Positions 393 through 45,844 of a stretch of DNA of 64,000 nt are shown one piece after another. Every line of letters starts with the position of its first letter. Position 1 is the first letter of the stretch. A program made the position numbers and the translations under genes. This DNA comes from Solidesulfovibrio magneticus RS-1 (GTDB lineage: Bacteria; Desulfobacterota; Desulfovibrionia; Desulfovibrionales; Desulfovibrionaceae): positions 1,054,001 through 1,118,000 of the forward strand of contig NC_012796.1 in assembly GCF_000010665.1 (NCBI RefSeq), given 5' to 3'. The notes under the pieces were generated by a model. It was not told the DNA's origin. It did not search any database and was given only the letters and a program-made list of their open reading frames with translations.

Positions 393-2141
393 CTACTGGA
401 ATAGGGCAAGTTGTTCGGCAATCGGCCCCAGCGCCAGAGCGGGTACAAAGGTCAGCGCCCCAACCACCAAAACCACGATGATGAGCAGGGCGACGAAAAT
501 GCCCCCGTGGGTCGGCAGGGTGCCGGGGCCTTGGGCCAGGCGCTTTTTCCCGGCAAGCGATCCCGCCAGGGCCAGGACCGGGACGATGAGCCAGTAGCGG
601 GACACGAACATGGCCACGGCTCCGGCAATGGTCCAGAAGGGCGATGTGGCGGTTAGGCCGGCAAAGGCGCTGCCGTTGTTGTTGCCCATGGAGGAAAAGG
701 CGTAGAGCATCTGGGAGAAGCCGTGCGGTCCCGGGTTGGACACGGCGTCGGCCGGTCCGATCACGGCGGCCAGCGCCGTCCCCGCCAGGCAAAGAAACGG
801 CGGAATCAGGATGACGAGTGCGGCCATCTTCGTTTCGAATGGTTCGATTTTCTTGCCGCAGTATTCCGGTGTGCGTCCGACCATGAGCCCGGCCACGAAA
901 ACCGTGACCACGGCGAAGACCAGCATGCCGTAAAGCCCCGACCCCACGCCGCCGTACACCACCTCGCCAAGCTGCATGAGGAGCATGGGCCACATGCCGC
1001 CAAGGGGCGAGAAACTGTCGTGCATGGCATTTACTGATCCATTAGAGGCGGCGGTAGTGGCTGCGGCCCACAAGGCCGATCCGGCCGTGCCGAAGCGGAC
1101 TTCCTTGCCTTCCAAGCTGGGAACGGCCGGTACGCCGATGCCGGACAGGGTCGGATTGGGGACCGATTCGGCGGCGAGTGTCAGTGCGGCAAACCCAGCG
1201 AAGAGGATGGTCATGGCTGCCAGGATGGCCAAACCCTGCCTCCTGTCGCCAATCATGACACCAAAGGTGTGACACAGGGCCGCCGGGATGAGCAGGATGG
1301 CCAACATCTCCAGGAGATTGGTCAGGGGCGTCGGGTTTTCGAGGGGATGGGCAGAGTTGACGTTGAAATAGCCGCCGCCGTTGGTGCCGAGTTGCTTGAT
1401 CGCCACCTGCGAGGCCACGGGGCCAAGGACGATGGTTTGTTTGGCCGGGGGCTGGTCGGTTGACGGCGTGTCGGGCGAAATGGACTCGGCCACATGGGGG
1501 GCGGGATCGAGCCAGTCGGCTTCGACCTGTCCCGTGAACGTCTGGGGCACGCCCTGCCAGACAAGGAGAAGAGCCAGTACGAAGGAGAGCGGCAGCAGGA
1601 TGTACAGGACGGATCGCGTGAGGTCCTGCCAGAAGTTGCCCAGGTGGGTGGTCTCCCGACGGGCAAGGCCACGGATGAGGGCCACAGCCACGGCCATGCC
1701 GGTTGCGGCGGAGAGGAAGTTCTGGACAGCGAGCCCCAGCATCTGGGTGAGGATGCTCATGGTGGATTCGCCGGCGTAGGCCTGCCAGTTGGTATTGGTG
1801 GCGAAGCTTACGGCCGTGTTGACGGCCACGAACGGGTCCACACCGGGAAGGTGCAGAGGATTGAGCGGGAGCCCCCCTTGGAGCCGCTCCAGGACGTAGA
1901 CGAAGACCATGCCGAAGGCGTTGAGGCCGAGCATTACCAGGGCATAGATTTTCCAGTCCATTTCCCGGGAAGCGTCGACGCCGCTGATCCGGTAGAGCAG
2001 GCGTTCAAGAGGTCCGAGTATTTTGTCCATGACGCAGGGCTGTCCCTGGTAGACGCGGGCGGCATAGAGTCCCAGAGGCCAGGACAACACAAGCAGAACG
2101 GATAGGAAAAACAAGAGTTGCACGAGGTTGATTGGGTTCAT
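393..2141 (-). CDS. kdpA: KdpA, K+-transporting ATPase potassium-binding subunit
   Basis: This 582-residue membrane protein is the K+ channel-like subunit of KdpFABC. It has about ten hydrophobic segments and recognisable selectivity-filter loops: TNTNWQAYAGE, the GTNGGGYFNVNSAHP loop, a third loop near TTAASNGSVN and SSMGNNNGSAFAGL near the C-terminus. The length is normal (E. coli KdpA is about 557). Its ATG overlaps the kdpF stop by 4 bases (ATGA), implying translational coupling. The family identity is very secure. Confidence 0.96.
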   Translation of the reverse strand: MNPINLVQLLFFLSVLLVLSWPLGLYAARVYQGQPCVMDKILGPLERLLYRISGVDASREMDWKIYALVMLGLNAFGMVFVYVLERLQGGLPLNPLHLPGVDPFVAVNTAVSFATNTNWQAYAGESTMSILTQMLGLAVQNFLSAATGMAVAVALIRGLARRETTHLGNFWQDLTRSVLYILLPLSFVLALLLVWQGVPQTFTGQVEADWLDPAPHVAESISPDTPSTDQPPAKQTIVLGPVASQVAIKQLGTNGGGYFNVNSAHPLENPTPLTNLLEMLAILLIPAALCHTFGVMIGDRRQGLAILAAMTILFAGFAALTLAAESVPNPTLSGIGVPAVPSLEGKEVRFGTAGSALWAAATTAASNGSVNAMHDSFSPLGGMWPMLLMQLGEVVYGGVGSGLYGMLVFAVVTVFVAGLMVGRTPEYCGKKIEPFETKMAALVILIPPFLCLAGTALAAVIGPADAVSNPGPHGFSQMLYAFSSMGNNNGSAFAGLTATSPFWTIAGAVAMFVSRYWLIVPVLALAGSLAGKKRLAQGPGTLPTHGGIFVALLIIVVLVVGALTFVPALALGPIAEQLALFQ

Positions 2142-2722: not shown

Positions 2723-3193
2723 TTAAGTTCGAGTTAACTCTTCAATAGGGATAAGTTTGTCCAGATCGAGAAGGATAAGTAGTCGGTTGTCAAGTTTTCC
2801 TACACCCTTGATGTACTCCGATTCGATTCCAGAAACAACTGGTGGTGGAGGTTCGACTGTGTTTGATTGAATGCGAAGTACTTCAGACACTTCATCAACT
2901 ACGAAGCCAGTTATCATGGCATGAAGATCTACAACTATGATACGGGTCTGGCTATCATGGACATGATAATCAAGGCCAAATCGGCTTCGAAGGTCAATGA
3001 CAGGGATCACCTTTCCTCGTAGGTTAATAACACCTTCGACGTAAGGAGGAGCATTTGGAACTTTAGTAATGTCCATAATACGGATAATTTCTTGAACTTT
3101 CAGGATGTCAATTCCGAACTCTTCTTCGCCAATGCCGAAGGTCACAAGCTGGAGAAGTTCATTCTCCTGGTTGGTCATAATTGGTTCGCTCAT
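2723..3193 (-). CDS. cheW: CheW-type chemotaxis coupling protein
   Basis: This 156-residue soluble adaptor should link chemoreceptors to the CheA kinase. It is a single CheW fold with the family signatures EEEFGIDILKVQEIIR, VEGVINLRGKVIPVIDLR and the C-terminal LLILLDLDKLI. The ATG overlaps the stop of the upstream MCP (TAATG), and GAGAGG just inside the MCP end serves as ribosome-binding site, so the pair is translationally coupled and the protein probably serves that receptor. No CheA is present in the window, so it must work with host kinases. Confidence 0.94.
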   Translation of the reverse strand: MSEPIMTNQENELLQLVTFGIGEEEFGIDILKVQEIIRIMDITKVPNAPPYVEGVINLRGKVIPVIDLRSRFGLDYHVHDSQTRIIVVDLHAMITGFVVDEVSEVLRIQSNTVEPPPPVVSGIESEYIKGVGKLDNRLLILLDLDKLIPIEELTRT

Positions 3194-5661
3194 TAACCTC
3201 TCCCGAGAGCAAGGATTTTTTTTCCAGAGGGGAGGGCGGTGGATGATGATCCGCCGTCAGATTTCATCTCGTCAATGAGTCGCTTAAGGACTTGAGCTTG
3301 GTCAGCTAACTCGGTTACTGCCTGCGCAGATTGTCTCATGCCATCAGCTGTTTCGGATGAAATTCGATTCACAGATTCAATGCTACGATTGATTTCTTCG
3401 CTCGTAGCCGATTGCTGTTCAGAAGCTGTAGCAATTGAACGGACTTGATCTGTAGTTTTTTCAGCCAAAGTGACAATTTGTCGTAAGGCGTCACCGGAGT
3501 TTGTCGCAAGACTTGTGACCTCTTCGATGTTTTTCCCGGTGCGCTCCACGTTTTCAATGTTCTTCTTAGTGCCATCCTGGATGCCGCGGATTGCGCTCCC
3601 GACTTCCTTAGTCGCGGTCATAGTTTTCTCCGCCAGTTTCCTGACCTCGTCAGCGACAACTGCGAATCCTCGTCCGGCGTCACCAGCCCGGGCCGCTTCA
3701 ATAGCTGCATTAAGAGCCAAAAGGTTAGTTTGGTCAGCAATGTCCGATATGACATTAAGAATCTGTCCGATTCCCTCGGCTTGCTTGCCCAGGTTGTCCA
3801 TGTCAATTTTCATTTCTTGGGATTGGTTTTGGACTTGACCAATGCCCTTAACAACTTGACTTACCGCCCGTGCTCCTTCTTCAGCTTTGGTTTTTGCCTG
3901 ATCAGCTGTACCAGCAGCGTTCGAAGCATTTTTAGCTACTTCAAGTACTGTTGCGTTCATTTCTTCCATCGCTGTCGCGGTTTCTGAGATGCTTCGCGCT
4001 TGTTCTTCTGAACCTCTGCTTGATTGTTCAATCTGAGCAGATAATTGTTCAGACGCGGAAGTCACGATCTCTACAACACTTTCAAGCTGTTGTGCGGCTT
4101 GAAGCATGCCTTCAGCTTTTGCTCTTTCTGCTAATTTCTGCTGAAGTACAACTTCTGTTACGTCGTTAAATAATGTTATCCCTGCTACAACATTATGGTT
4201 GTAGTCGTAAATAGGAGAAGCATCAACGTTGACAATTTTTTCTTTGCCAGTCGTTGTCTTCATTTCGACGCGATCCATCTTGATAATGCGCTTTTCTTCT
4301 AGGGCTTGTTGGGTAATGGTTTTTTTGTTTTTGTCATTGTAGGCAAAGAAGCCCATGCTGGTTCCGACAAAATCTTTTGGGGAACCATTCTTTTCAAAGA
4401 AATCTATGACAGGTTGGTTGGCGAGTAGGATGTTGCCAGATGAGTCGCCAATCACACACGGAACGGTTATGCCATTTATGACGCCATCGGCGTACTCGAT
4501 TTTATTTTTAAGCTCTTTGACCATGGTTCTTAACGCATCAGCTAAAACACCAATTTCGTCTTTTTGGTTAATGTCAAGGGTCTGGTTGAAATCACCTTCT
4601 GCGACAGCCTTGGCAAACGTGACGCCCTTGATTATTGGTCTGCTAATTATGGACGCTAGCAAAAATGCGATAGCTAGTCCCAGAGCTATTGCGGTTGCAA
4701 TTGTTGACATGATTATCGTGTCAGCTTCCGAGCTTGTAGCTTGAGCTGCTTTTTTTGCATCTTCAAGTTTCTTGTAGCCTGCCTCTTCTGCTGCTTGTGC
4801 CTGTTTTATAACATTCAATCCCATAGTTGACATCGATTGTAAGATGAAATTTAAGCCGTCATCGTTTTTGATCCATGAAGCTGCTGCTTTTTCATAAATC
4901 AGCGTAGCTGTTCTGGCATCTTTGATGAGTTGTGTCTCGCTGGGGTCGGTGGTTATCTTTTCCAGTTTGTTGTAGAGCTCCATTAACTCCGGGAGCATCT
5001 TTTGCATCGATGCGTATGCTTTTCTGTCTTTATAGTTCACTTCCTCTTTTTCGGCGCGCATGATTTTGAGAGCAAGCTCATATATATTTGTAGTAATTAT
5101 GTAACGCTGTACGTATTTGTCGAGAGTAGCTGGGTCTGCACCGTCTTTTTGAGCCTTGGTGTAAGCTGATACCTGCATCGACAAAAACTTAGCGGCTGCA
5201 TCTCCGACAATATTGCCGGTGCGAACCATTTCTTTTACTGCATCACGATTTTCTTTAATTGATTTTACTCCTTCTCTATATTTTTCAGCATATTTTGCTG
5301 TTTCAGATCGAGCAATCTTGGACTTTTCTAAGAGAGTGTCGATGTTGTTTGAACGCGCAATTTCATCAACTTTGTCAAGAAATGAATTAAGCTCTTTGAC
5401 GTTTTGTTCGGCCCGTAGATGTGCTTCATCCGATTGACTGATAAGATAATTTTTTTCCTCCATGATAGTATTGAGGGCCATGCGCTCGACACCAGTAGCG
5501 TATTCTACCGCTTTGGCGTCACGGTCGGTTATTCCTAAAAGGGCAGAGGATACTTTTCCGATATATATATAGGCTAGGCCGCCAAGCGTAACAGTTATAA
5601 GTACAAGCGCTAACGCCCCCGTCATGATCTTCGTTTTGATTTTCAAGTCACTGAAGCGCAT
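3193..5661 (-). CDS. Methyl-accepting chemotaxis protein with helical-bundle sensor and PAS (left-flank copy)
   Basis: This is an 822-residue receptor. In order: TM1 (about 12-35), a long helical periplasmic domain of HBM/four-helix type (about 40-310), TM2 (about 315-338, ending in the HAMP-like ISRPIIKGV), HAMP (to about 390), a PAS domain (about 395-510, starting [20 protein letters not shown]), and the cytoplasmic signalling hairpin with the conserved tip [20 protein letters not shown] near 640-660. No C-terminal NWETF-type tether is visible. It is nearly identical to 34790-37258. A GGCGATAA box at 5853-5860 (minus strand) resembles a sigma28 -10 element, but no TAAA is correctly spaced upstream of it. 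Confidence 0.95.
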
Positions 5662-7213: not shown

Positions 7214-9103
7214 CTAATTGCTAGATTTTAGGGGTTTCAGAGGAGTCGTTTGGTCGTTGGCACAAAACACCATATTCCTGCCATTGGCCTTTGCTGTGTA
7301 AAGTGCGTCATCTGAAATTTTTGTTAAATCGTTGATTGTCGTGTTTGTATTTGGATTGAACTGTGCAATGCCAATGCTAACTGTGATGCTCAGAAGGTCA
7401 TTTTCGTACTCAAACCTTGTCGATTCTACAATTTTTCTAAATCGTTCAGAAGCGAGTATCGCTTCCTCTTTGTCTGTTTCTGGCATAATCACTGCAAATT
7501 CTTCACCACCGATGCGCCCGATAATGTCCGATGAACGAAAACAATTGAGAGCTAGTTTGCTGAGTTCTCGCAAAACTAGATCACCTGCTTCGTGGCCCCA
7601 GGTGTCATTTACTTGTTTGAAGTGATCTATGTCGAATAACGCTATTGACAAGTTTGCTTTATGTCGTTTGGCCATTTCGAAAAGGATGCTACTGTGTTCC
7701 AAGAAGTGCTGTCTATTGTTTAATCCGGTCAAACTGTCAGTGGTTGCCATTTCTTTAAGTCTTTCTTCCATTATCTTTCTTTCTGTTATGTCGCGTGCTG
7801 CGGCAAATATACCGGTTGAGATTCCGGTTTCGTCCTTGAAAACAGAAAAATTAAAAATAGCATGAGTGTTTTTCCCGTTTATATTCGTAAACTCTAGTTC
7901 GTGATTTTTGATTGAAGAATATAAAAGAGTGTCCTGAAGCCCTTGGTCAGCTTTTTGGTCATTAGTAAATAACGAGCTAAATTTTCTCCCGATTAGTTCC
8001 GTGCGGCTTAGTCCAGTTATTGTTTCTGTGGATTTGTTGGCGTCTGTTATGACTCCTTCTCGGTCAATTGCCATGATAGGGTCTGTGTTGATTTCAAAAA
8101 GACTTCTGTTGTAATTGTTCGCCTGTTTTAAAAGTTCTCTAGCTGCTACCTTTTCTTCTACTTCACGTTTCAAATTTCTATTTTTCCAGAAAATGATGCC
8201 AAAGATCAAGAGTGCAAACCCTGTTAACTTCAGCGCCCATTGTAGAACGTGATATGGATTTGTAAGGCTGGAGTACTCGAGTCGGAGCCATTTTTGTCTT
8301 ATTAAATTCTCTTCCTCTGGTGTAATTGAGTCTAGTCCTTTTTGGAGGATTCTTTTAAGTATTGGCATACTGTTAGGAGTTGCCATGGCTAATTTGTTAT
8401 CACCCCAAGGTGTTGGCGCTGCTACTTTAAGATTTGATAACCCTCGTTTGTTTATTAAGTATGATGCAACTGCAAGATCAACGATACAAGCTTGGGCTTT
8501 TCCTAAAGAAACGGCTTCTAGCATAGACTCGGTGTCTTGTTCGAATTGGTAGTCTAAGGTTACTTCTGGGAACTCATTTTTTACTTTGCTATATGTTGAT
8601 AGCGTTTTTACTTCGGCAACTTTCAGGCCGTTTAAATCTTTTACAGAACCTATAAAAGGACCGTCGCTCCGGCTAATTATGACTAAAGGGTAGGACAGAT
8701 ACGGACTGGTGTATGATAAAAAATCTGCCCGCTCTGGTGTCCAGGAAATGCAAGGGAATACATCAATCTTGCCCTCTCGTCCTAGTTCTAGAGCCCTGTC
8801 AAATGTAATGTTGAAAACTGGTTCGAAAGTAACTCCAAGTCGTTTTTCTAAGAGGCGTATTGTGTCAGCAGCTATTCCTTTGAATTCAAAGCCTCTGTAG
8901 CTGTTCTCGACAAATTGAAAAGGAGGGAAAGCAATTCCTACTCCCATCGAAAGCTTGGGATGCTCAATTAGAAATTGTTTTTCTTCTTGTGTCAGCTTTA
9001 GAGTCTGTATTTCAGTTCCATGTGCTATTTCTCTCAATGTAGTTGCAGAAAAAGTAGTCGCAATTAGCAGCGTTAATGTGAAAAAGTGAACTTTTTTGAA
9101 CAT
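7214..9103 (-). CDS. Membrane diguanylate cyclase with periplasmic solute-binding (SBP_bac_3) sensor and PAS
   Basis: A 629-residue sensor enzyme expected to make c-di-GMP from two GTP. In order: signal peptide (1-25), periplasmic amino-acid-binding-protein-like domain (about 45-280, with SMGVGIAFPPFQFVEN and GREGKIDVFPCISWTPERAD), one TM (about 290-308), PAS (about 330-450) and GGDEF (about 460-615). The active-site motif is GGEEF near 531. RSSD five residues before it is a product-inhibition I-site, so an active, feedback-controlled cyclase is expected. The copy at 39541-41394 is about 97% identical but has a shorter C-terminal tail. Confidence 0.93.
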   Translation of the reverse strand: MFKKVHFFTLTLLIATTFSATTLREIAHGTEIQTLKLTQEEKQFLIEHPKLSMGVGIAFPPFQFVENSYRGFEFKGIAADTIRLLEKRLGVTFEPVFNITFDRALELGREGKIDVFPCISWTPERADFLSYTSPYLSYPLVIISRSDGPFIGSVKDLNGLKVAEVKTLSTYSKVKNEFPEVTLDYQFEQDTESMLEAVSLGKAQACIVDLAVASYLINKRGLSNLKVAAPTPWGDNKLAMATPNSMPILKRILQKGLDSITPEEENLIRQKWLRLEYSSLTNPYHVLQWALKLTGFALLIFGIIFWKNRNLKREVEEKVAARELLKQANNYNRSLFEINTDPIMAIDREGVITDANKSTETITGLSRTELIGRKFSSLFTNDQKADQGLQDTLLYSSIKNHELEFTNINGKNTHAIFNFSVFKDETGISTGIFAAARDITERKIMEERLKEMATTDSLTGLNNRQHFLEHSSILFEMAKRHKANLSIALFDIDHFKQVNDTWGHEAGDLVLRELSKLALNCFRSSDIIGRIGGEEFAVIMPETDKEEAILASERFRKIVESTRFEYENDLLSITVSIGIAQFNPNTNTTINDLTKISDDALYTAKANGRNMVFCANDQTTPLKPLKSSN

Positions 9104-9139: not shown

Positions 9140-9535
9140 TGTTGAGTCTTTAGACTTTTTGAGGACCTTCGGCGTGTCCATCCACAACAGGAGCGGGTAG
9201 GACTCGCAGGATCCTGCGATTTTCAGCGCCGAGAAAACGGCAAATTCCTGGATTTTCAAAAGTCCAGTAAACTAGAATTCTAGGGCATCGGCCTCACGGT
9301 GAGTTTCATGGCAACTGCACTGGACTCTTGTCCAAAGTAATTCTTGAACTTTTTCTACCCCAGCAGCAACACCAAGCAAACTTCCCAAGCTGTAGCCGAT
9401 GGGATACACTCACCACACTGACCCAACGGACGGCACTGGGACCACCTGGGACTGATCATGGCCCAGCATACCACGCCGTTAAAAAAAGGTGAACCACTTG
9501 GGCAGGGCGGTCCACCTTTGGACTAAAAATTAAAC
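9140..9535 (-). repeat. Type-B cassette-junction module (Q-P1-P2)
   Basis: Read on the minus strand this spacer has the conserved Q segment (9370-9408), P1 (9263-9276, one mismatch) and the P2 palindrome CGCAGGATCCTGCG (9205-9218), between the Zn-finger-like gene and the GGDEF gene. Unit 2 has two such modules here (41437-41915 and 43165-43660) with a histidine kinase between them. A hairpin with T-run just after the small gene (about 9490-9515) is probably its terminator. Confidence 0.75.
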
Positions 9536-10467: not shown

Positions 10468-11616
10468 CTATGCCACTTCTAATGCAGGTAACAGGTTGAC
10501 TGCTCTTTCCTTTTCTCCTTCCATGTAGTGGTAATAGGTGTCTGCCGTCATCTTCACCGTGGAATGACCCATCATTTTGGAAACGGCAGCTAAGTCAGCA
10601 CCTTTGCGAAGTAAGGTGGTCGCAAACAGGTGCCGAAGATCGTACATACGAGTCTGGTAGGTGATACCAGCCCGTTTGCATGCGTTTTTGAATGCTTTCC
10701 GAATCGTAGTCAGCTTCCGGCCCATGTACTCGATGACATATCCGGTCTGGGACTCTGCCTGCTCCTTCTCCAAACGTTTCAGGAACTCAGGGTTGATCGG
10801 AACTGTCCGGTATGTCTTGGTTTTACTCGCATAAATGCGAACAGTGCTGGCTTTGAAATCAATGTCTTCCCACTTGAGGGAAAGAAGTTCAGATTCACCA
10901 GGACGAGTACCCAGGTTGAAACAAACTTCCATCGCCCACTTCAAATGAGGCTCGGCATTGACCATGATCTTCTTCGCATCGTCCAAGGTGAGTTTCATGT
11001 CCCAGGGCTGGACCTTGGGTTTCTTCCAATTCTTCAGGGGATTAACGGAGGTAAAGCCGTTGTCTATCCCGAAGTTGAAGATGAAACTCAAGTAATCACA
11101 GTATTTATTTACCGTGTACTGGGACCGAACCTTTCCCGTTCTGCTGCTGACTCCTTGAAAGTGCAGGATGAACGGAATCATATCTTCTTGATATGTCAAA
11201 GAATCCACGGGTTTGTCGCCGAGGACTGGGATAAACACATGGTGGACCAAGTGCTCGATGTTCCGAATGTGCTTCTCCGTCCGGCCTGATGCCTTCATAT
11301 GGGCCAGATACTTCGATCCAAGCTCTGACAGGAGCATCCCCGGCTGATCGTGACCGTGGACCTGGTTGGTTGGCCCAGACGCCGCTGTAGCGGGATTATC
11401 CGCTATCCCAGTGGCCGGTGCTGGAACTTGGACCGATGCAGTCACCGTTTCGGGATCAGGAACCGGTAACCCCTGGTCGAGTGCATCACGAACAGCGTGA
11501 TCAAACTTTTCAGCTTTAGCTTGAGCAAGTTCGCCACGTCCAAACGATTTGTCATGTCTTTTGCCGTTGACATGCCAATAGACCATCCATCGGCTATCAC
11601 GAGTATAGACGCCCAT
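10468..11616 (-). CDS. Tyrosine recombinase / integrase (full length)
   Basis: A 382-residue site-specific recombinase. It has a short N-terminal arm-binding-like domain (MGVYTRDSRWMVYWHVNGKR), a variable Pro/Ala-rich linker (about 55-95), an SAM-like core-binding domain (about 98-200) and the catalytic domain. Catalytic residues appear in GTRPGESELL (Arg about 236), DLRHLFATTLL (His/Arg about 325-328), MMGHSTVKMT and the tyrosine in ADTYYHY (about 363). It is about 95% identical to 44591-45739 except in the linker. It is the likely enzyme for excision and integration of the unit. Confidence 0.95.
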   Translation of the reverse strand: MGVYTRDSRWMVYWHVNGKRHDKSFGRGELAQAKAEKFDHAVRDALDQGLPVPDPETVTASVQVPAPATGIADNPATAASGPTNQVHGHDQPGMLLSELGSKYLAHMKASGRTEKHIRNIEHLVHHVFIPVLGDKPVDSLTYQEDMIPFILHFQGVSSRTGKVRSQYTVNKYCDYLSFIFNFGIDNGFTSVNPLKNWKKPKVQPWDMKLTLDDAKKIMVNAEPHLKWAMEVCFNLGTRPGESELLSLKWEDIDFKASTVRIYASKTKTYRTVPINPEFLKRLEKEQAESQTGYVIEYMGRKLTTIRKAFKNACKRAGITYQTRMYDLRHLFATTLLRKGADLAAVSKMMGHSTVKMTADTYYHYMEGEKERAVNLLPALEVA

Positions 11617-11720: not shown

Positions 11721-12278
11721 TTAGATAGATTTCATCAAAACTTCTTCGACTTCTTCCTCCTTAACGCCGATGTATCTTCTTGTGATACTTGGGCTGCTGT
11801 GGTTAAGTCTTTTAGCAATGACTTCCCACGAAGTGCCGTGAGTCTTCCTCTGGTGATAGCACCAGGTTTTTCTCAGCGTGTGCGCTCCATAGTTCCCTGG
11901 GAGGTTTATTGCATCACACCATTGCTGCACGTACATAGTCACTGCATACGTGGTTAAAGGATAATTCTTGCCCTTGCGGCTCTTGAACAGAAACAGTTCT
12001 TCCTTGGCCTCAATGGTGCTCAAATAGTCGTCAAGAGCCTCCTTGATTTCTTTATTGATCATGAGGACGTTCTCTTTACTCGTCTTCTTTTCACGGATGA
12101 CAATGCGGTCGCCGACATTGGCGTGCTTTACATCCGATATTTTGAGTGCAAGGATATCCTGTACACGGAGCCCAGTGTTAACGCCCATAATGAACAAGAG
12201 TTTGTTCCGTGGTGAATCATGCAAAAGCTTTTTAATGCTTTTGATGTACTTCACATCCGAGATCGGCTCGACTTTCAT
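11721..12278 (-). CDS. Short tyrosine recombinase (catalytic domain only)
   Basis: A 185-residue protein made only of the catalytic domain of the tyrosine recombinase family. Motifs: NTGLRVQDIL (Arg I about 41), HTLRKTWCYHQ (about 136-140), LNHSSPSITRRYIG with the candidate nucleophile Tyr. All catalytic positions are present. I chose the ATG at MKVEP because it sits 8 bases after GGAGG. The close match at 45845-46402 (about 80% identical) shows it is maintained. It could assist the long recombinase, resolve dimers or act at cassette junctions. Confidence 0.9.
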   Translation of the reverse strand: MKVEPISDVKYIKSIKKLLHDSPRNKLLFIMGVNTGLRVQDILALKISDVKHANVGDRIVIREKKTSKENVLMINKEIKEALDDYLSTIEAKEELFLFKSRKGKNYPLTTYAVTMYVQQWCDAINLPGNYGAHTLRKTWCYHQRKTHGTSWEVIAKRLNHSSPSITRRYIGVKEEEVEEVLMKSI

Positions 12279-12592
12279 AAAATCCTCCAATTGGGTTTTT
12301 CAATTTTGGGAGGTTGGAAAGAAACATTGAAAATTGCCCCCTTCACACTGGGCCTTGAAAAGTGCCAGATAACAGATTGTAGTCCTTGCAGTTATTGTTT
12401 TTGCTTGGCCCAATTTACGATATTAGATAAAACCGTTCTTTCCTTTAAATACTCATATCTGTAAATTTGTGGCTAAAATCGCAAATACAATGCGAAGGAT
12501 GATTGGCTCAGTTGCTGACGATAGCTTGCCGATGATCGTTCCGTTGCAGATGAAATCATTGCACTGCTGAAGAAGCACAATAGCTATATTTG
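12279..12592. other. Spacer upstream of the short recombinase, no gene seen
   Basis: About 310 bases between the short recombinase and the regulator terminator. The copy at 46403-46734 is only partly similar; a shared short block is AATCGCAAAT. No open frame is conserved. It presumably contains the promoter of the recombinase genes. Confidence 0.4.
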
Positions 12593-12648: not shown

Positions 12649-13029
12649 TTATGGGAGAATCTTGGTTAAGATGATCTTCCCGTCACTGGCCTCGACAGCG
12701 AACTCGTCATCTTCATTGATTTCGAGATCACCGAGATCATAGGCCTTCAGGTTGATCTTCAAGATGCCTTGCTGATTCACCTTCGCTCTCTTTGAGCCTT
12801 TCAGGTACAACCCCTTGACCTCATAGAGCACGCGATCAGTACTGATCAGCTTTCCGACATGTTGCTTGAGTGTTTGGCGGTGCCTTATCTGCATCCGCTC
12901 CATTATCGTAGCAGCATCCAGACCTTCTTTGATAAGTACGCGAAGAGTCTTCGGATCGTACTTCGATTCGATCTTCTTCTTCGACGCCTTTTCTTGGATT
13001 TCCGTAGTGGTGCCATTCTTTGCTCCCAT
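12649..13029 (-). CDS. HTH plus AbrB-like DNA-binding regulator
   Basis: A 126-residue protein. It has an N-terminal helix-turn-helix-like segment (LRVLIKEGLDAATIMERMQI, then a second helix TLKQHVGKL) and a C-terminal half with the swapped-hairpin pattern of AbrB/SpoVT proteins (KVNQQGILKINLKAYDLGDL, ending EVNEDDEF-like and GKIILTKILP). The start at MGAKNG is chosen because AAAGGAGG precedes it; an upstream in-frame extension lacks a ribosome-binding site. The paralogue at 57934-58254 and the relic at 2447-2658 share the layout. It probably represses recombinase or replication genes of the unit; this is inference from position. Confidence 0.75.
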   Translation of the reverse strand: MGAKNGTTTEIQEKASKKKIESKYDPKTLRVLIKEGLDAATIMERMQIRHRQTLKQHVGKLISTDRVLYEVKGLYLKGSKRAKVNQQGILKINLKAYDLGDLEINEDDEFAVEASDGKIILTKILP

Positions 13030-13319
13030 AACGCCTCCTTTGCATAGAAATGTTACTTTACTTGGTATATCTCTATGAATTGCTGAAAAACGCGGTAAAA
13101 CGCGCATTTGTTGGGTCAAAATGCATCAGATTTCTCGTCTTTCTGGGATGAAAATCGTAATTTGGCCCTAGGGGGCTGTTTCTGGGGTTTTTGCTGTCTG
13201 GGGATGCCAAGCCATAGGCCAAGCCCCGAAAGCCCAGGAGACGGGATTTTACGGGGGGTGTCCCCAGTACTGGGCCGAGGATGTCCCGGACCCATGAAGG
13301 AGTGGGGAAAACTGCCGCC

Positions 13320-13358
13320 GTTTCAAAAAGAAAAGGTCTCCAACGAGTGAAGACCTTT
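13320..13358 (-). terminator. Minus-strand terminator at the end of the structured non-coding region
   Basis: Stem AAAGGTCT/AGACCTTT, followed on the minus strand by TTTTCTTTTTG. The counterpart in unit 2 (47485-47524) has a different stem (AAAGGC/GCCTTT) in the same place with the same T-run. Pairing is thus kept while sequence changes, which supports a real terminator for a transcript coming from the right. Confidence 0.7.
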
Positions 13359-13359
13359 C

Positions 13360-14290
13360 TATGCAAATTACTTTGCAATTTACGGAGCTAAACTTCTATC
13401 TAGATGAACCAGATAGAAGCAGCACTCCTTTAGAGTCGAAAGGAACAATTTCTTGTCCTAGCACTCCAAGTATCTGTACAAGCGGTTTTCCCGCATACAG
13501 CTACGTCGTTTGGTATTCGATGCCTCATAAGTGTCTAATATTTTTAAGTAGCTTTTAATGACGCTGTACTACTAATGAACAGCGGCTTCGAGTTTATACC
13601 CAAAGCAATGGTTTTTGTTGTTTTTGTTAAAGGCATTTCAAATTTTCAGCATCGAATACCAATCGATAGTTTCTTACAAACCTCAGTCACCCTTGGAGGA
13701 ATTAGCTTCCATCTCCATGGAATCTTCCCAGAAGGGCTTCCTTTGGTCAATTTTGATCCTTTTGAATCCATCCCGTGTCTAACCGCATCTATGTATCAAA
13801 ATCATGGTTGACTTGATTTGTCATGATTTCGAAAGAGTCTATACAGACTAACGAACTTCAGTTTGCCATGAACCTCGTTCGATACATAGGCCACCGTGAC
13901 TTCTGCATTTTATGCATACGGGCTAGCTTCCGTCTCAACCTCTCCCCTGTCTGAATTACTTCATAAAACAGGTTGGTCATCCTTGGTGAATTGATTCGAG
14001 GAGAAGCGATCAATTAGTTTAATCCAAGTAATGTTTATTGTTTGACTTGCTGTCATTCAAGTATGACTAGCTCCTAGCTAAACGTGCTAGGATAGGATTT
14101 AAAATCTACAAAGCGCCCATGGCGTTTATAAATTGCAAAGTTTTGTCTCTATAGCTTATTTGCCAGGTATTAATATCTCTAGGAGTTTAATCAATACAAC
14201 TTGCTAGAACTGGGTAGAGGATGTCCCTAGTGATGACAGTCGTCCTGAGAGTAGTTGAGGGCTGGCAATCGCTGTGCTAAAAATGCCCTG
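13360..14290 (-). ncRNA. Large structured non-coding RNA candidate (about 0.85-0.95 kb), copy 1
   Basis: About 930 bases without a supportable gene but packed with hairpins. Examples: CTTCTATCT/AGATAGAAG (13393-13419), TTGGTATTCGATG (13510-13522) pairing over 130 bases with 13650-13662, AATTGAT/ATCAATT nested in CTTGG/CCAAG (13982-14028), TCCTAGC/GCTAGGA (14072-14092). The copy at 47525-48460 keeps the stems, some with compensated bases. The minus strand is favoured because a terminator closes that side (13320-13358) and some variants give G-U pairs only on that strand, but other stems favour the plus strand. A structured replication or transfer site is the main alternative. Confidence 0.6.
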
Positions 14291-14298
14291 GAATCGTT

Positions 14299-16296
14299 AT
14301 GAACTACTCCTGGGATGAGATTTACCTACTGATCCAACGGGCCGATCAGCTTGACGCTGGTGGGCGGCTCACGATTTTTGAATTTCTGGCCCAGACGCTA
14401 TCCCTTATACCCCTGCGCGATGGATTTCCAACCCCGGCCGAGATCAAAGCATATGGTCTCACGAAGGCAGCCAAGAAGTACAAGGGCCCGGTTGAGAATG
14501 GGTGGCAGCGGTGGTGCCGAGAGAAGCGTCCCTTTGACCAAGCGAATTTCAGCACTGACCGAGCCGGGATCGCCTGTGGGCCAGCCAGCGGTGTCCTGGT
14601 TCTCGATGTCGATAATCACCATCTATTTGAAGCATGGATACAAGAGAAGCATCCAGATGAACCGCTGCCCGTGACATTGAAGGTGAAAACTGGCGGTCAC
14701 GGTGAAAGATTTCATTACTATTTCCAGTATCCATCCGGGGATGAACAATATTCTTGCCGTTCGGTGAAGGGAATCTTCGAAATACGTGGCATCGGTGGCC
14801 AAATCCTTTGTCCTGGTTCGTTGCATCCCGAAACACGAAAGCCCTATATCTTCGTTGAAATAGCTCCCATTATGCCTGCCCCGTTGTGGCTTTTAGAGAT
14901 GAGCAAAAAATCCTATGGCCGCAAGAAAGATCACGACGAACAAAGTCCTCCCGAAGGTATAAGAAAAAAACATATTCTGGAGATTGATCTTGTAGATACT
15001 TTTTTGTCTAATTTTAATCTGTCAGATGATACGAAACAAAAAATCCTCACAACATTTCCTCTAGGACAAAGGTCAGAACCATCCTGGTCCGTTCTTTTGG
15101 GGTTGCTAAATGCCAACGTTGATGAAAAGACTATCCGTCGTATTTATCAAAGCTATCCTGTCGGAGAAAAGGCTAGAGAAAGGCCTGATTGGTTTGAACG
15201 GGAAATTGAAGCAGCTAAGAAAACTATAGCTCAGAATCCAATAGGGGTTCATATGCAACTTGGTTTCTCTTCTGGGGCTAATGCTTCTTCTTCAGATTCT
15301 GAGTATGGTATTGTCAATGCGTTTGATGTGTTAACGGCGCAAACAAACTTTGAGTTTCTTATAGATAATTTTTGGCCAAAAGATGAGCCGCTGCTAATTA
15401 CAGGGTATGGCGGTGCTGGCAAGTCAGTCTTGACCCTGCAAATAGCAATTGATTTGGTTTTTCCTCCAGGTAATGGATTCTTGGATAAATTCAAAGTGCT
15501 TCATGGAAGGCATCGTATTCTTTTTGTCCAGTCAGAAAATTCTTTAGTTGGAATGAAGCGAAGGCTTGAACTTATTCGCGGCGCTTACGCTGTCCCAGAT
15601 CACGTTATTCAGCAAAGTGTATTTTTTCTTGGTAGAAAGAATGATATTCGTGCTACTGGCGACCTCGATAGTCAAAAGTTCCAAGACGTAATCAAGAAGC
15701 AGCATGATTCTGTAGGATTTGACATCCTGGTTGTTGACCCACTTATAAGCTTTCATAATAAGGATGAAAATTCGAATGACGAAATGCGTAGACTCTTGGA
15801 CAATTTTTCAGAATTTTGTGAAAGTCTCAAGGTCTCGCCGTTAATCATACATCATCATGGAAAATTTAAGCAAGAAAGAGGAGTTGGTGGCGGACGCGGT
15901 GCAAGTGCTATCGGTGACTGGTCTCCGAATACCTGGGAGTTGGAGTACAAGGAAAAAGACAAGAAATTCAAATTCATTCATAAAAAAGCTAGAAACTTCA
16001 TGCTAAACGATGATCTTGCACTTGAGTTGCGAAATTTAAGATTTTCTAGCAATGTTCAGCAGAGTGGTTCAAAAAAAGATACTTCTTACTATGTCATTAA
16101 AGCTTTGCAAAACTTAAACGGTGTTGCTTCGACGCAAACTATTTTAAAAAATGAAATAGTCAAGGTCTACTTAACAGATAATCCAGGCAAGAGCATCAGT
16201 GCCGTGACTGCTGTCAAGTATATCCAAGATACCGTTGGCAAGAATGCTATTAAGACCATCCCTGGTTCGAAAGGGTCAATATCCTATCAAATTTGA
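14299..16296 (+). CDS. Bifunctional primase-polymerase / RecA-like helicase replication protein, unit 1
   Basis: A 665-residue probable replication initiator. The N-terminal archaeo-eukaryotic primase (Prim-Pol) domain (about 30-205) has GIACGPASGVLVLDVDNH with the metal-binding LDVD, and the later GERFHYYFQ. A central linker (about 215-330) precedes a RecA/RepA-type ATPase (about 345-560) with Walker A GYGGAGKS (about 369-376), Walker B DILVVDPLISF (about 474) and IIHHHGK...GGGRGASAIGD. The C-terminal about 95 residues, probably a winged helix for origin binding, differ completely from unit 2, whereas the first about 130 residues are almost identical. Iterons follow directly downstream. Confidence 0.92.
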   Translation: MNYSWDEIYLLIQRADQLDAGGRLTIFEFLAQTLSLIPLRDGFPTPAEIKAYGLTKAAKKYKGPVENGWQRWCREKRPFDQANFSTDRAGIACGPASGVLVLDVDNHHLFEAWIQEKHPDEPLPVTLKVKTGGHGERFHYYFQYPSGDEQYSCRSVKGIFEIRGIGGQILCPGSLHPETRKPYIFVEIAPIMPAPLWLLEMSKKSYGRKKDHDEQSPPEGIRKKHILEIDLVDTFLSNFNLSDDTKQKILTTFPLGQRSEPSWSVLLGLLNANVDEKTIRRIYQSYPVGEKARERPDWFEREIEAAKKTIAQNPIGVHMQLGFSSGANASSSDSEYGIVNAFDVLTAQTNFEFLIDNFWPKDEPLLITGYGGAGKSVLTLQIAIDLVFPPGNGFLDKFKVLHGRHRILFVQSENSLVGMKRRLELIRGAYAVPDHVIQQSVFFLGRKNDIRATGDLDSQKFQDVIKKQHDSVGFDILVVDPLISFHNKDENSNDEMRRLLDNFSEFCESLKVSPLIIHHHGKFKQERGVGGGRGASAIGDWSPNTWELEYKEKDKKFKFIHKKARNFMLNDDLALELRNLRFSSNVQQSGSKKDTSYYVIKALQNLNGVASTQTILKNEIVKVYLTDNPGKSISAVTAVKYIQDTVGKNAIKTIPGSKGSISYQI

Positions 16297-34789: not shown

Positions 34790-37258
34790 TTACCCTCTTC
34801 CTAATGCCAGCGGCTTCTTTCCTTCAGGAAGTTCTTTAGTGCCAGAACCACCATCTGATTTCATTTCATCAATAAGACGCTTAAGGACCTGGGCCTGATT
34901 CGCCAATTCACCCACAGCTTGAGCAGATTGTCTCATGGCATCGGCAGTTTCCGAAGAAACCCGATTTACAGATTCAATGCTACGATTAATTTCTTCGCTC
35001 GTAGAAGATTGCTGTTCAGATGCAGCGGCAATCGACCTAACCTGATCCGTAGTTTTTTCAGCCAAGGTGACAATTTGTCGTAAGGCATCTCCGGAGTTTG
35101 TCGCAAGGTTTGTGACCTCTTCAATATTCTTCCCGGTGCGCTCTACGTTTTCAATGTTCTTCTTGGTACCGTCCTGGATGCCCCGGATCGCGTTCCCGAC
35201 TTCCTTGGTTGCGGTCATGGTTTTTTCCGCCAGTTTCCTGACTTCATCAGCGACAACTGCGAATCCACGTCCGGCGTCACCGGCCCGGGCAGCTTCAATG
35301 GCTGCATTAAGTGCCAAGAGGTTGGTCTGGTCAGCAATGTCAGAGATGACATTAAGAATCTGTCCGATTCCCTCGGCTTGCTTACCCAAATTGTCCATAT
35401 CAATTTTCATTTCTTGGGATTGATTTTGGACTTGACCAATGCCCTTAACAACTTGACTTACCGCCCGTGCACCTTCTTCAGCTTTGTTTTTTGCCTGATC
35501 AGCTGTACCAGCCGCGTTCGATGCATTTTTAGCTACTTCAAGCACTGTTGCGTTCATTTCTTCCATCGCTGTCGCGGTTTCTGAAATACTGCGTGCTTGT
35601 TCTTCTGATCCTCTGCTTGATTGTTCAATCTGTGCTGATAATTGTTCAGACGCGGAAGTCACGATCTCTACAACACTTTCAAGTTGTTGAGCTGCTTGAA
35701 GCATGCCTTCAGCTTTTGCTCTTTCTGCTAATTTCTGCTGAAGTACGACTTCTGTTACGTCGTTAAATAATGTTATCCCGGCTACAACATTATGGTTGTA
35801 GTCGTAAATAGGAGAAGCATCAACGTTGACAATTTTTTCTTTGCCAGTCGTTGTCTTCATTTCGACGCGATCCATCTTGATAATGCGCTTTTCTTCTAGG
35901 GCTTGTTGGGTAATGGTTTTTTTGTTTTTATCATTGTAGACAAAGAAGCCCATGCTGGTTCCGACAAAATCTTTTGGGGAGCCATTCTTTTCAAAGAAAT
36001 CTATGACAGGTTGGTTGGCGAGTAGGATGTTGCCAGATGAGTCACCAATCACACACGGAACGGTTATGCCATTTATGACGCCATCGGCGTACTCGATTTT
36101 ATTTTTCAGCTCTTTGACCATGGTTCTCAGCGCATCAGCTAAAACGCCGATTTCGTCTTTTTGATTAATATCAAGAGTTTGGTTGAAATCACCTTCTGCG
36201 ACAGCCTTGGCAAACGTGACTCCCTTAATTATTGGCCTGCTAATTATTGACGCTAACCAAAATGCGATAGCCAGCCCAAGAACTATTGCGGTTGCTATTG
36301 TTGAAATGATTATTGTGTCAGCTTCCGCGCTTGTAGCTTGAGCTGCTTTTTTCGCATCTTCAAGCTTTTTGTAGCCTGCTTCTTCTGCTGCTTGTGCCTG
36401 TTTGATAACATTTAACCCCATAGTTGACATCGATTGTAAAATCAAATTTAAGTTGTCGTCGTTTTTTATCCATGAAGCTGCTGCCTTTTCATAAATCAGC
36501 GTAGCTGTTCTGGCATCTTTGATGAGTTGTGTCTCGCTGGGGTCGGTGGTGATCTTTTCCAGTTTGTTGTAGAGCTCCATTAACTCCGGGAGCATCTTTT
36601 GCATCGATGCGTAAGATTTTCTGTCTTTATAGTTCACTTCCTCTTTTTCGGCGCGCATGATTTTGAGAGCAAGCTCGTATATGTTTGTGGTGATTATGTA
36701 GCGCTGTACGTATTTGTCAAGAGTAGCTGGATCTGCACCATCTTTTTGAGCTTTGGTATAAGCTGATACCTGCATCGACAAAAATTTAGCGGCTGCATCT
36801 CCGACGATATTGCCGGTGCGAACCATTTCTTTTACTGCATCACGATTTTCTTTAATCGATTTTACTCCTTCTCTATATTTTTCAGCGTATTTTGCTGTTT
36901 CAGACCGAGCAATCTTGGACTTTTCTAAGAGGGTGTCGATGTTGTTTGCACGTGCAATTTCATCCACTTTGTCAAGAAATGAATTAAGCTCTTTGACGTT
37001 TTGTTCGGCCCGTAGATGTGCTTCATCCGATTGACTGATAAGATAATTTTTTTCCTCCATGATAGTATTGAGGGCCATGCGCTCGACACCGGTAGCGTAT
37101 TCTACCGCTTTAGCGTCACGGTCGGTTATACCTATAAGGGCAGAGGATACTTTGCCGATATATGTATAGGCTAAGCCGCCGAATATAACGGTTATGAGTA
37201 CAAGCGCTAGCGCCCCAGTCATGATTTTCGTTTTGATTTTCAAGTCACTGAAGCGCAT
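34790..37258 (-). CDS. Methyl-accepting chemotaxis protein with helical-bundle sensor and PAS (end of unit 1)
   Basis: An 822-residue receptor with the same architecture as 3193-5661 and about 97% identical residues. Most differences are in TM2 ([20 protein letters not shown]) and the C-terminal tail ([17 protein letters not shown]). The signalling tip [20 protein letters not shown] is intact. Unlike the left-flank copy it is not coupled to cheW but is followed 112 bases later by a small helical protein. Near identity of two receptors suggests recent duplication or gene conversion rather than new specificity. Confidence 0.95.
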
Positions 37259-39540: not shown

Positions 39541-41394
39541 TTAGTTTTTGGCGCAAAACACCATATTGCGGCCATTGGCTTTTGCTGTGTAGAGAGCGTC
39601 GTCTGAAATTTTTGTTAAATCGTTGATTGTCGTATTTGTATTTGGATCGAACTGTGCAATACCGATGCTAACTGTGATGTTTAGGAGGTCGTTTTCATAC
39701 TCAAATTTTGTCGATTCCACCAGTTTCCTAAAACGTTCAGAAGCGAGTATCGCTTCCTCTTTGTCTGTTTCTGGCATAATCACTGCAAACTCTTCACCAC
39801 CGATGCGCCCGATAATGTCCGATGAACGAAAACAATTGAGAGCTAGTTTGCTGAGTTCTCGCAAAACTAGATCGCCTGCTTCGTGACCCCAGGTGTCGTT
39901 TACTTGTTTGAAGTGATCTATGTCGAATAATGCTATTGACAAGTTCGCTTTATGTCGTTTGGCCATTTCGAAAAGAATGCTACTGTGTTCCAAGAAGTGC
40001 TGTCTATTGTTTAGGCCAGTCAAGCTGTCGGTGGTTGCCATTTCTTTAAGTCTTTCTTCCATTATCTTTCTTTCTGTTATGTCGCGTGCTGCGGAAAATA
40101 TACCGGTTGAGATTCCGGTTTCGTCCTTGAAAACAGAAAAATTGAAAATAGCATGAGTGTTTTTCCCGTTTATATTCGTAAACTCTAGTTCGTGATTTTT
40201 GATTGAAGAATATAAAAGAGTGTCCTGAAGCCCTTGGTCAGCTTTTTGGTCATCAGTAAATAACGAGCTAAATTTTCTCCCGATTAGTTCCGTGCGGCTT
40301 AGTCCAGTTATTGTTTCTGTGGATTTGTTGGCGTCTGTTATGACTCCTTCTCGGTCAATTGCCATGATAGGGTCTGTGTTGATTTCAAAAAGACTTCTGT
40401 TGTAATTGTTCGCCTGTTTTAAAAGTTCTCTAGCTGCTACCTTTTCTTCTACTTCACGTTTCAAATTTCTATTTTTCCAGAAAATGATGCCAAAGATCAA
40501 GAGTGCAAGCCCTGTTAGCTTCAGCGCCCATTGTAGAACGTGATATGGATTTGTAAGGCTGGAGTACTCGAGTCGGAGCCATTTTTGTCTTATTAAATTT
40601 TCTTCCTCTGGTGTAATTGAGTCTAGTCCTTTTTGGAGGATTCTTTTAAGTATTGGCATACTGTTAGGAGTTGCCATGGCTAATTTGTTATCACCCCAAG
40701 GTGTTGGCGCTGCTACTTTAAGATTTGATAACCCTCGTTTGTTTATTAAGTATGATGCAACTGCAAGATCAACGATACAAGCTTGGGCTTTTCCTAAAGA
40801 AACGGCTTCTAGCATAGACTCGGTGTCTTGTTCGAATTGGTAGTCTAAGGTTACTTCTGGGAACTCATTTTTTACTTTGCTATATGTTGATAGCGTTTTT
40901 ACTTCGGCAACTTTCAGGCCGTTTAAATCTTTTACAGAACCTATAAAAGGACCGTCACTCCGGCTAATTATGACTAAAGGGTAGGACAGATACGGACTGG
41001 TGTATGATAAAAAATCTGCCCGCTCTGGTGTCCAGGAAATGCAAGGGAATACATCAATCTTGCCCTCTCGTCCTAGTTCTAGAGCCCTGTCAAATGTAAT
41101 GTTGAAAACTGGTTCGAAAGTAACTCCAAGTCGTCTTTCTAAGAGGCGTATTGTGTCAGCAGCTATTCCTTTGAATTCAAAGCCTCTGTAGCTGTTCTCG
41201 ACAAATTGAAAAGGAGGGAAAGCAATTCCTACTCCCATCGAAAGCTTGGGATGCTCAATTAGAAATTTTTTCTCCTCTTGTGTCAGGTTTAGAGTCTGTC
41301 TTTCAGTTCCATGTGCTATTTTTCTGAACGTGGTTGCAGAAAAAGTAGTCGCAATTAGCAGCGTTAAAATGAAAAAGTGAACTTTTTTGACCAT
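39541..41394 (-). CDS. Membrane diguanylate cyclase with SBP_bac_3 sensor and PAS, copy 2
   Basis: A 617-residue copy of 7214-9103 with the same signal peptide, periplasmic binding-protein-like domain, TM, PAS and GGDEF (GGEEF with an RSSD I-site). The C-terminus ends NMVFCAKN, 12 residues shorter than copy 1. The start MVKKVHFF is chosen because it aligns with copy 1; an in-frame ATG seven codons upstream is blocked by a stop in copy 1. Identity is about 97%, much higher than for the cassettes around it. Confidence 0.92.
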   Translation of the reverse strand: MVKKVHFFILTLLIATTFSATTFRKIAHGTERQTLNLTQEEKKFLIEHPKLSMGVGIAFPPFQFVENSYRGFEFKGIAADTIRLLERRLGVTFEPVFNITFDRALELGREGKIDVFPCISWTPERADFLSYTSPYLSYPLVIISRSDGPFIGSVKDLNGLKVAEVKTLSTYSKVKNEFPEVTLDYQFEQDTESMLEAVSLGKAQACIVDLAVASYLINKRGLSNLKVAAPTPWGDNKLAMATPNSMPILKRILQKGLDSITPEEENLIRQKWLRLEYSSLTNPYHVLQWALKLTGLALLIFGIIFWKNRNLKREVEEKVAARELLKQANNYNRSLFEINTDPIMAIDREGVITDANKSTETITGLSRTELIGRKFSSLFTDDQKADQGLQDTLLYSSIKNHELEFTNINGKNTHAIFNFSVFKDETGISTGIFSAARDITERKIMEERLKEMATTDSLTGLNNRQHFLEHSSILFEMAKRHKANLSIALFDIDHFKQVNDTWGHEAGDLVLRELSKLALNCFRSSDIIGRIGGEEFAVIMPETDKEEAILASERFRKLVESTKFEYENDLLNITVSIGIAQFDPNTNTTINDLTKISDDALYTAKANGRNMVFCAKN

Positions 41395-41436
41395 AATTAA
41401 AGGCCATGACGCCATTGTGTTTTGTTAAAGTGTTGA

Positions 41437-41915
41437 GTCTTTAGACTTTTTAAGGTCCTTCGGCGTGTCCATCCACAACAGGAGCGGGTAGGACTCGCAG
41501 GACTCTGCGAATTTCAACCCCGAAAAATCGCTAACTTCTGGATTTTCAAAAGTTCAGTAAACTGGAATCCTGGTGCATCGGTCTCAAGGTTTTTTTCGCG
41601 GCAACCACACAGGGACAGTTTGTCTGCTGTAATTCTTAAACTTCTCTCCGATAACGGCAACGATAACACCAAGTAAACTTCCCAAGCGGCGGCCTATTGG
41701 ATATGCTCAGCGCTACTGGCTCAACTGGGCGGCAACGACTTTGGGACCAGCCCAGGACTAATCCTGTCACAGCATACCACTCACTAAAAAAGATGTAATA
41801 TCTGGGTAGAGCGGGTAACTTTCAAGTCATGAGCTTACATCTTTTCTGATTCTTCTGGTACATCCCATTTCCAGTTGGTCAAAAACGAAATTCCTTTCGT
41901 TTTTGGGGTTGCTGA
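41437..41915 (-). repeat. Type-B module between histidine kinase and GGDEF
   Basis: Read on the minus strand: P3 as a textbook inverted repeat (AAAAACGAAA at 41881-41890, loop TTCC, complement at 41895-41904), a hairpin with arms AGATGTAA and TTACATCT (about 41790-41845), Q, P1 (near 41545) and P2 (near 41505). The part nearest the GGDEF gene matches the single module of unit 1 (9140-9535). Confidence 0.75.
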
Positions 41916-41925
41916 TTGGAATGAA

Positions 41926-43083
41926 CTATTTACCTTGGTTGCATTTCGGTATGTTTACCCAGAACACGGTTCCGTCAGGTTCCTCTGAAGTGAAGCCTAC
42001 TTTTCCACTAAGATAATTCTCTGTGAGTAGTTTTATGGAGTAGGTGCCAAGTCCACGGTCTAGTCCTTTTGTTGAAAAGGATCTTTTGAAAATCTGGACT
42101 TTGACATGGTCGGGTATGACTCTTCTACTAGCTACCCAAAATTTTGCAAAATCACCGTCATCGTCTAGTCCTAATGTTATACTACCATTTTCAGACGTGG
42201 CTTCTAATGCATTGATGACCATATTTATGATAACGCGCATGAGTAAAGTGTAGTCTGATAAGACCTGGACGTTGACGCTGTTGGGGGAAACAACTATTCT
42301 CTTCCCATATGCTTTAGGATGTGTGCGGTACTCGTTTGCTACAAGGTTGATTAGCTCGATGCCTTGTAAAGTGATCATGGAGAGACTGTATTCTTTGTTT
42401 TCAAGCGCCAGTAGTTGTTTTTGTTTCTTAATTTCTTCTACAAGGCCAAACAGTGACGCTTGGACAAGGCTCATTAACTCTTTGCTTTCTTCTGGAACTT
42501 CGTCGAACAAGGTGTCAAGTAGGGCTTTTGCTCCTCCGGCTGCATTAAGAATATCGTGAAAAAAGATTCGTTCCAGTATTTTTCTACGTTTTTCGTCTTC
42601 TATATCTACGATTGAGACAACATAATACTTTGCGTTTTCAACATCCCAAGGAGAAACAAATACTCTCAGGTCTTTTGCCGAGCTTTCATTGTTGTAGCTT
42701 ACCAGAAGTTGGCAGTCGTGTTGAACTTTAGAATTGTTAATCATGCTTTCTAATACTGCTCGGAGAGCACCACATTCACGGCAAAATGTAGAAGTGCCAC
42801 ATCCTGCTTCTTCCACGTGGGCGTAGCTACAACCCATGGCTTCACCGGGGCGAAGCCCAAGGAAATTGCCTAGGTCGTTGATGCCAAGGATGTCTAAAAA
42901 AGCTTTATTGCTGAAAACTATTTGCCGGTGACTGTTTAAAACAATCAGCGGAAGAGGAAAGAAGTCAAAGTAGCTAGAGCATATGTGCCCAGAAAGCTGT
43001 TTTCTCTCTTCCTGCACTTCAGTAATGCTTAAACGTTCAGGTGGGGCGCATTTTGTATGTAACTGATCGCTGCTCAAGTTCAT
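41926..43083 (-). CDS. Cytoplasmic histidine kinase with Cys-rich PAS (cassette present only in unit 2)
   Basis: A 385-residue soluble kinase. PAS domain (about 35-165) contains a Cys cluster, CSYAHVEEAGCGTSTFCREC (about 85-104), of the kind seen in PAS kinases of delta-proteobacteria and possibly binding metal or sensing redox. An atypical dimerisation helix holds the likely phospho-His (FFHDILNAAGGAKAL, about 175) and an HATPase follows (NMVINALEATSENG to FSTKGLDRGLGTYSIK). There is no receiver. It is flanked on both sides by junction modules, and unit 1 has a single module in its place. Confidence 0.88.
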   Translation of the reverse strand: MNLSSDQLHTKCAPPERLSITEVQEERKQLSGHICSSYFDFFPLPLIVLNSHRQIVFSNKAFLDILGINDLGNFLGLRPGEAMGCSYAHVEEAGCGTSTFCRECGALRAVLESMINNSKVQHDCQLLVSYNNESSAKDLRVFVSPWDVENAKYYVVSIVDIEDEKRRKILERIFFHDILNAAGGAKALLDTLFDEVPEESKELMSLVQASLFGLVEEIKKQKQLLALENKEYSLSMITLQGIELINLVANEYRTHPKAYGKRIVVSPNSVNVQVLSDYTLLMRVIINMVINALEATSENGSITLGLDDDGDFAKFWVASRRVIPDHVKVQIFKRSFSTKGLDRGLGTYSIKLLTENYLSGKVGFTSEEPDGTVFWVNIPKCNQGK

Positions 43084-43164
43084 ATCCTTCCGGTTGATTT
43101 AGTTGAAAATTAGAAAAGTAGTGCGTGTATTATCGGTATCTTACATCACTTTGGCCTAAATCTA

Positions 43165-45739: not shown

Positions 45740-45844
45740 AAAAACCTCTTCTGTTCTAGGTTGAAGTAACAATTTAAATTATGGACCGAGGGGGAATTAA
45801 GGCGCTCGACAAATAAAGGGGATTTTACTCCCCTTGGTAAGAGT

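Follow-up and report, generated by a model that had tools for sequence, protein, structure and literature searches.

What lies in a stretch of some 930 bases that carries no supportable gene and is found, in two copies, between a putative AbrB-like regulator gene and a primase gene of Solidesulfovibrio magneticus RS-1? The window analysed here comprises 64,000 nucleotides of the 5,248,049-base chromosome (genome 5.3 Mb) and contains two related units, whose 0.9-kb stretches share about 90% identity. A sequence-only reading had proposed a large, structured and covarying non-coding RNA of a mobile element, perhaps a member of the ROOL, GOLLD or OLE RNAs or else a new class; it had left the strand undecided, and had kept a structured origin or transfer site in play. 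The lack of a supportable gene is borne out: the plus-strand ORFs at 13361-13558 and 13575-13811 are not matched in unit 2 by ORFs alike in frame and extent, and a protein encoded in the region was rejected because its ORFs are not conserved between the units. No tRNA or tmRNA gene was found in the window.

In both units the stretch holds a non-coding RNA with covariation on the minus strand (Table 1). The RNA itself is only about 820 nt long; the 930 bases first given are non-coding as claimed, but 14142-14298 is the region upstream of the RNA. Read 5' to 3', it consists of a P0 strand, a large D1, D2-D3, a D4 with a long helix and no ORF, D5 (in unit 2, AGCUGUAUGCGGGAAAACCGCUUGUACGGUU), D6, a stem-loop (SL7), the second P0 strand and a terminator. 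The inverted repeats noticed earlier are present and now have their places in this plan. The 13-14-bp pair closing about 150 bases (13510-13522/13649-13661) forms the D4 stem, the nested repeats CTTGG..CCAAG (outer) and AATTGAT..ATCAATT (inner) belong to D1, and the stem thought to be replaced by another between the units is the stem-loop 3' of D6. The changes of CGCTGT/ACAGCG to CCTGT/ACAGG and of GGAG/CTCC to AGAG/CTCT between units are real, and a minus-strand terminator does close both copies.

Table 1. Coordinates of the RNA, its parts and the accompanying genes in the two units (window positions).
Feature	Unit 1	Unit 2	Strand	Basis or remarks
Full-length tyrosine integrase	10468-11616	44591-45772	-	Cassette linkage
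Short tyrosine recombinase, 189 aa, catalytic domain only	11721-12290	45845-46414	-	Pfam Phage_integrase
Gene 1, small HTH + AbrB/MazE-like protein	12649-13119	46792-47262	-	Cassette linkage
Group II intron-like stand-alone RNA	13322-14141	47490-48310	-	Structure and covariation; ends conserved in 47 copies; 5' end near 14141, 3' end at the terminator
P0, 5' strand	14129-14141	48298-48310	-	13 bp with 13370-13382 (unit 1)
CAUGGGCGC core, start of D1	14113-14121		-	Sequence conservation sets in sharply here
D1 + D2 + D3 region	13665-14128		-	RNAalifold (two subfamilies) and D1 core alignment; sub-boundaries approximate
D4, ORF-less	13510-13664	47675-47829	-	Closing helix of 13-14 bp
D5	13472-13502	47637-47667	-	Unit 1: AGC triad, 2-nt bulge, GAAAA (GNRNA) loop; RF00029 29.2 bits, below gathering score
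D6	13433-13466	47597-47630	-	Bulged A at 13436 (unit 1)
SL7, stem-loop 3' of D6	13384-13428	47550-47594	-	Fold
P0, 3' strand	13370-13382	47536-47550	-	Partner of 14129-14141 (unit 1)
Intrinsic terminator and T tail	13322-13359	47490-47524	-	Hairpins 13331-13359 and 47499-47524
Variable replication module, here Prim-Pol + AAA primase	14299-16296	48468-50510	+	Gene content

Upstream of the RNA, at 14167-14179 and at the matching site of unit 2, a TATTAATA palindrome is followed by a TATAG box. One subfamily conserves this arrangement, a possible promoter or operator of the RNA; a scan of unit 1 found no sigma-70 consensus promoter upstream of the RNA. Each unit has a further terminator-like inverted repeat on the plus strand, placed between gene 1 and the terminator of the RNA (13164-13189 and 47307-47332).

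Folding favours the minus strand, with a minimum free energy (MFE) of -265 kcal/mol and z = -8.9 against 20 shuffles, compared with z = -6.0 for the plus strand. Two subfamilies of the RNA align poorly with each other and were given to RNAalifold separately; the overall plan closed by P0 was recovered in each of them, and also by the MFE fold of unit 1 alone. Covariation was assessed with our own script, which is modelled on R-scape but is not R-scape itself, against a null of alignments simulated on the tree. Of the 99 consensus pairs in an alignment of 28 sequences, 23 covary at E<0.05, and the top three covarying pairs among all column pairs fall within the structure. For D5-D6 an alignment of 44 copies, fitted to the model, has 95.8% of its cells paired, with both sides changed in 21 of the 24 pairs and G-U pairs tolerated, and gives a covariation score of 0.646 (0.245 when shuffled, at most 0.11 when slid). 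Given 14 copies aligned freely, RNAalifold finds D5 and D6 by itself, and 19 of the 24 pairs show compensatory change. The P0 sequence is wholly different between the subfamilies, yet complementarity is kept and extends up to 17 bp in one copy (L094); its mean duplex energy is -17.3 kcal/mol for cognate and -13.7 kcal/mol for non-cognate strands, the cognate value being reached in none of 10,000 permutations. The large, structured and covarying RNA was thus rightly foreseen, and its strand can now be given as minus.

By its fold, that is by D5-D6 and the order of the domains, the RNA is almost certainly a derivative of group II-type ribozymes. At gathering scores Rfam has no match in the stretch, and the RNA is not a member of ROOL, GOLLD or OLE; those are likewise large structured RNAs of mobile elements, but their folds are unlike the one seen here. 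In a permissive (E-value) scan the group II D5-D6 model matches the minus strand of units 1 and 2 with 29.2 and 28 bits (E = 0.0016 and 0.0034). RF00029 matches range from 22.9 to 39.9 bits, the gathering score being 40, and the Rfam D1-D4 models gave no match. Six domains leave one junction in canonical order, both in the RNAalifold structures of the two subfamilies and in the MFE fold of unit 1, with the assignment of D2 and D3 approximate. A class without relatives, as had been entertained, is not what this architecture describes.

The catalytic landmarks of D5 and D6 are kept. Of the 44 copies, 29 have AGC and 15 have CGC as the D5 triad, whose first pair swaps A-U for C-G; the 2-nt bulge is retained in the aligned copies, and the loop is GNAAA or near to it. 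GNRNA pentaloops fold like GNRA in other RNAs. The bulged residue of D6 is A in 44/44 aligned copies. C6-type copies have G.A and A.A mismatches at the base of D5. D1 carries CAUGGGUGC and GGCAAAC motifs, which we take to be group IIC-like, resembling O. iheyensis, and the CGC triad occurs in divergent members.

The RNA is one member of a cassette. In all 46 evaluable copies, which represent five genera, it is followed downstream on its own strand by gene 1 and the short recombinase, and a full-length integrase of about 380 aa is third in the row in 45 copies; gene 1 is unusually distant from the RNA in two loci (3.1 kb in L065 and 2.4 kb in L137). The gene 1 product has about 125 aa and belongs to no curated family. 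In its predicted structure the N-terminal part is helical (pLDDT about 90), and the best structural matches of the C-terminal hairpin, themselves weak, are AbrB and MazE; on this basis the label "AbrB-like" is reasonable but not proven. The replication gene upstream of the RNA varies in type (Prim-Pol/AAA, Cch1-like DUF927, DUF3987 neighbours). Distances among the RNAs correlate with those of gene 1 (Mantel r 0.48), the short recombinase (0.35), the integrase (0.19) and a cargo gene (0.16). The RNA is best read as integral to a family of integrative elements that combine tyrosine recombinases with a replication module. Integrase-driven islands usually end at tRNA genes, and several of these elements end beside one.

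Three elements of the family stand in a row in S. magneticus (C2:1067427, 1101591 and 1132166, all minus, spaced about 34 and 31 kb; window 2700-57500). The cargo of the two window elements includes an MCP gene (3193-5661 and 34790-37258), a GGDEF gene (7214-9103 and 39541-41415) and sigma-54 activators. An extra segment of about 1.5 kb in unit 2 (41514-43634 versus 9203-9510) contains a HATPase ORF (41926-43083), with direct repeats of about 0.3 kb on each side; ORFs related to this one are present in other elements.

With the D5-D6 covariance model we found 13 RNA copies in the S. magneticus genome, all within the cassette. The 47 copies examined in context come from ten Solidesulfovibrio genomes and seven genomes of four other genera, so that the family spans five genera of Desulfovibrionaceae. 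Exact matches to the conserved RNA motif are limited to Solidesulfovibrio/Desulfovibrio records. Elsewhere in the phylum the D5-D6 model has matches of up to about 60 bits; these were rejected as family members, the inspected ones lying outside the cassette and several being accompanied by a reverse transcriptase (RT). Four cassettes from two other genera (L096, L097, L099 and L100) have gene 1, the short recombinase and the integrase together with no RNA detectable even in unfiltered searches, and a 10.1-bit match in L100 was judged unconvincing as an RNA copy. Since these cassettes do without a detectable RNA, it is not required by every such element, which suggests that one branch of the elements gained the RNA early and has kept it stably since. 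In these four, 0.6-2.5 kb of other sequence fills the place of the RNA. Two oppositely oriented tRNA-Pro(GGG) genes, at 805-881 (+) and 10790-10866 (-), flank the L099 element.

How far, then, has this RNA moved from an intron? True group II introns of a genome of the same genus (G008) serve as an internal control: they encode group_II_RT_mat and start with GTGTG behind a terminator hairpin. They share D5/D6 and general D1 motifs with our RNA, which lacks the other three features. (Two such RT-bearing introns lie head to tail at L149 of this genome, 99.8% identical, the first directly behind a terminator hairpin.) An ordinary ORF-less group II intron, still splicing, that had inserted once in an ancestral element and been passively inherited since would account for the domain order and the bulged A. 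We nevertheless consider it quite unlikely. GTGYG (GUGYG in the RNA), the 5' splice site, is absent from the 25 nt preceding the conserved core in all 41 copies where that core could be located, and conservation of sequence starts abruptly at the core. No conserved AY 3' of D6 was seen in the alignments, judged by eye rather than by a formal count. The RNA is intergenic, has no recognisable exons and pairs its would-be exons in P0, and a terminator-like hairpin with a T run follows D5 in 47/47 copies (about 127-193 nt from the start of D5 in 46, 274 nt in one). Nor is there a maturase: the S. magneticus genome has no RVT_1 or GIIM domain, which rules out an RT supplied in trans, and no RT lies near the RNA copies in any cassette context. 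Circularly permuted group II RNAs, in which D5-D6 come first and the splice sites lie inside, are also ORF-less, non-standard RNAs of about 0.8-0.9 kb with the domains kept (PMC8637638); this identity was rejected, as here D5-D6 lie 3' of D1-D4 in canonical D1 to D6 order and there is no splice-site consensus. The position between the replication gene and the recombinase genes would suit an element acting as DNA (an origin, oriT or recombination site) through hairpins in the single strand, but the strand asymmetry of folding, the RNA-specific features of D5, the tolerated G-U pairs and the terminator make this very improbable, and the origin or transfer site suggested earlier is not needed to explain the data.

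Two readings that accept a group II fold deserve more weight. The fold may have been kept as the scaffold of a structural or regulatory RNA that binds the AbrB/HTH-like protein or the recombinase, or controls copy number, with catalysis irrelevant. The loss of the consensus 5' splice site, ends locked by P0, a fixed terminator and the closest match of RNA distances to gene 1 agree with such a role; a mere scaffold would not, however, require the triad, the 2-nt bulge, the GNRNA-type loop and the bulged A that are kept, and we regard it as rather unlikely. Liu et al., in 2024, reportedly described HYERs, hydrolytic endonucleolytic ribozymes, as RT-less group II-C ribozymes. A HYER proper, cleaving DNA by hydrolysis and riding in the elements, is possible but on balance doubtful. 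It would match the group IIC-like D1 motifs and the CGC triad of divergent members, and HYERs are reported to be ribozymes of group II-C with sequence-specific DNA cleavage (cited in PMC11127173). Both kinds are group II ribozymes without an intron-encoded protein and occur in several copies per genome (13 here). That number is, however, accounted for by the elements and not by self-movement of the RNA, which is always found in a cassette with two proteins and has ends joined by P0, a terminator and an invariant bulged A in D6. The IIC class is suggested by motifs, with the Rfam D1-D4 models unmatched. Compared by their published description, HYERs are the closest known kind, and at most the RNA works like one. 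IStrons, which combine a group I intron with a transposase, likewise join a ribozyme to a DNA-recombination element, but here the ribozyme is of group II type, the recombinases are tyrosine recombinases and no genes are enclosed by the ribozyme (PMC4227781).

The explanation that we favour, and judge probable from comparative sequence analysis, is a free-standing, RT-less group II ribozyme that is integral to tyrosine-recombinase elements, keeps its active site and probably acts in trans. Such an RNA would have arisen from a group II intron (canonical D1-D6, ORF-less D4) and would be made from the minus strand as a discrete transcript, which we infer because P0 joins its ends and it has its own terminator. 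It would retain a working group II active site and have lost self-excision; catalysis is suggested because the triad, bulge, docking loop and branch A are invariant or covarying while the rest drifts. Action in trans is likely because nothing remains to splice out, and the small AbrB/HTH-like protein and the short recombinase would be its partners. An RNA or DNA target, picked by base pairing with D1, would be cut or branched by the RNA. Because the RNA is inherited with two of the element's proteins, the step served would be the element's own maintenance, through excision, a replication intermediate or regulation.

The candidate reactions would be HYER-like hydrolysis of DNA or RNA, branching onto a substrate in trans, and a reaction of the RNA with itself at non-consensus sites. 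RNAs that branch are expected to have an invariant branch A, and its presence here leaves room for a splicing-like self-reaction that uses such sites. It is a tentative idea, to be held with some doubt, that a group II ribozyme without splicing or retrotransposition might have become the RNA part of a DNA element, acting in trans, together with the AbrB/HTH-like protein and the short recombinase, when the element is excised, integrated or replicated. We know of no precedent for an RNA-catalysed step in a tyrosine-recombinase element, and searching the literature for group II RNA connected with tyrosine recombinases brought up nothing relevant.

Group II ribozymes are familiar as introns and retroelements and as the presumed ancestors of the spliceosome. 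Here such a ribozyme is found in an unusual place and form, as a constant component of one family of integrating elements in bacteria. This RNA family has kept the catalytic core and the branch A, has parted with the RT and the consensus 5' splice site, and is locked to two proteins. It would be a naturally occurring example, in bacteria, of a group II RNA that has become a free-standing part of another machine, and since the RNA is small, multi-copy and present in a culturable genus, the trans activity of a group II RNA becomes testable in vivo.
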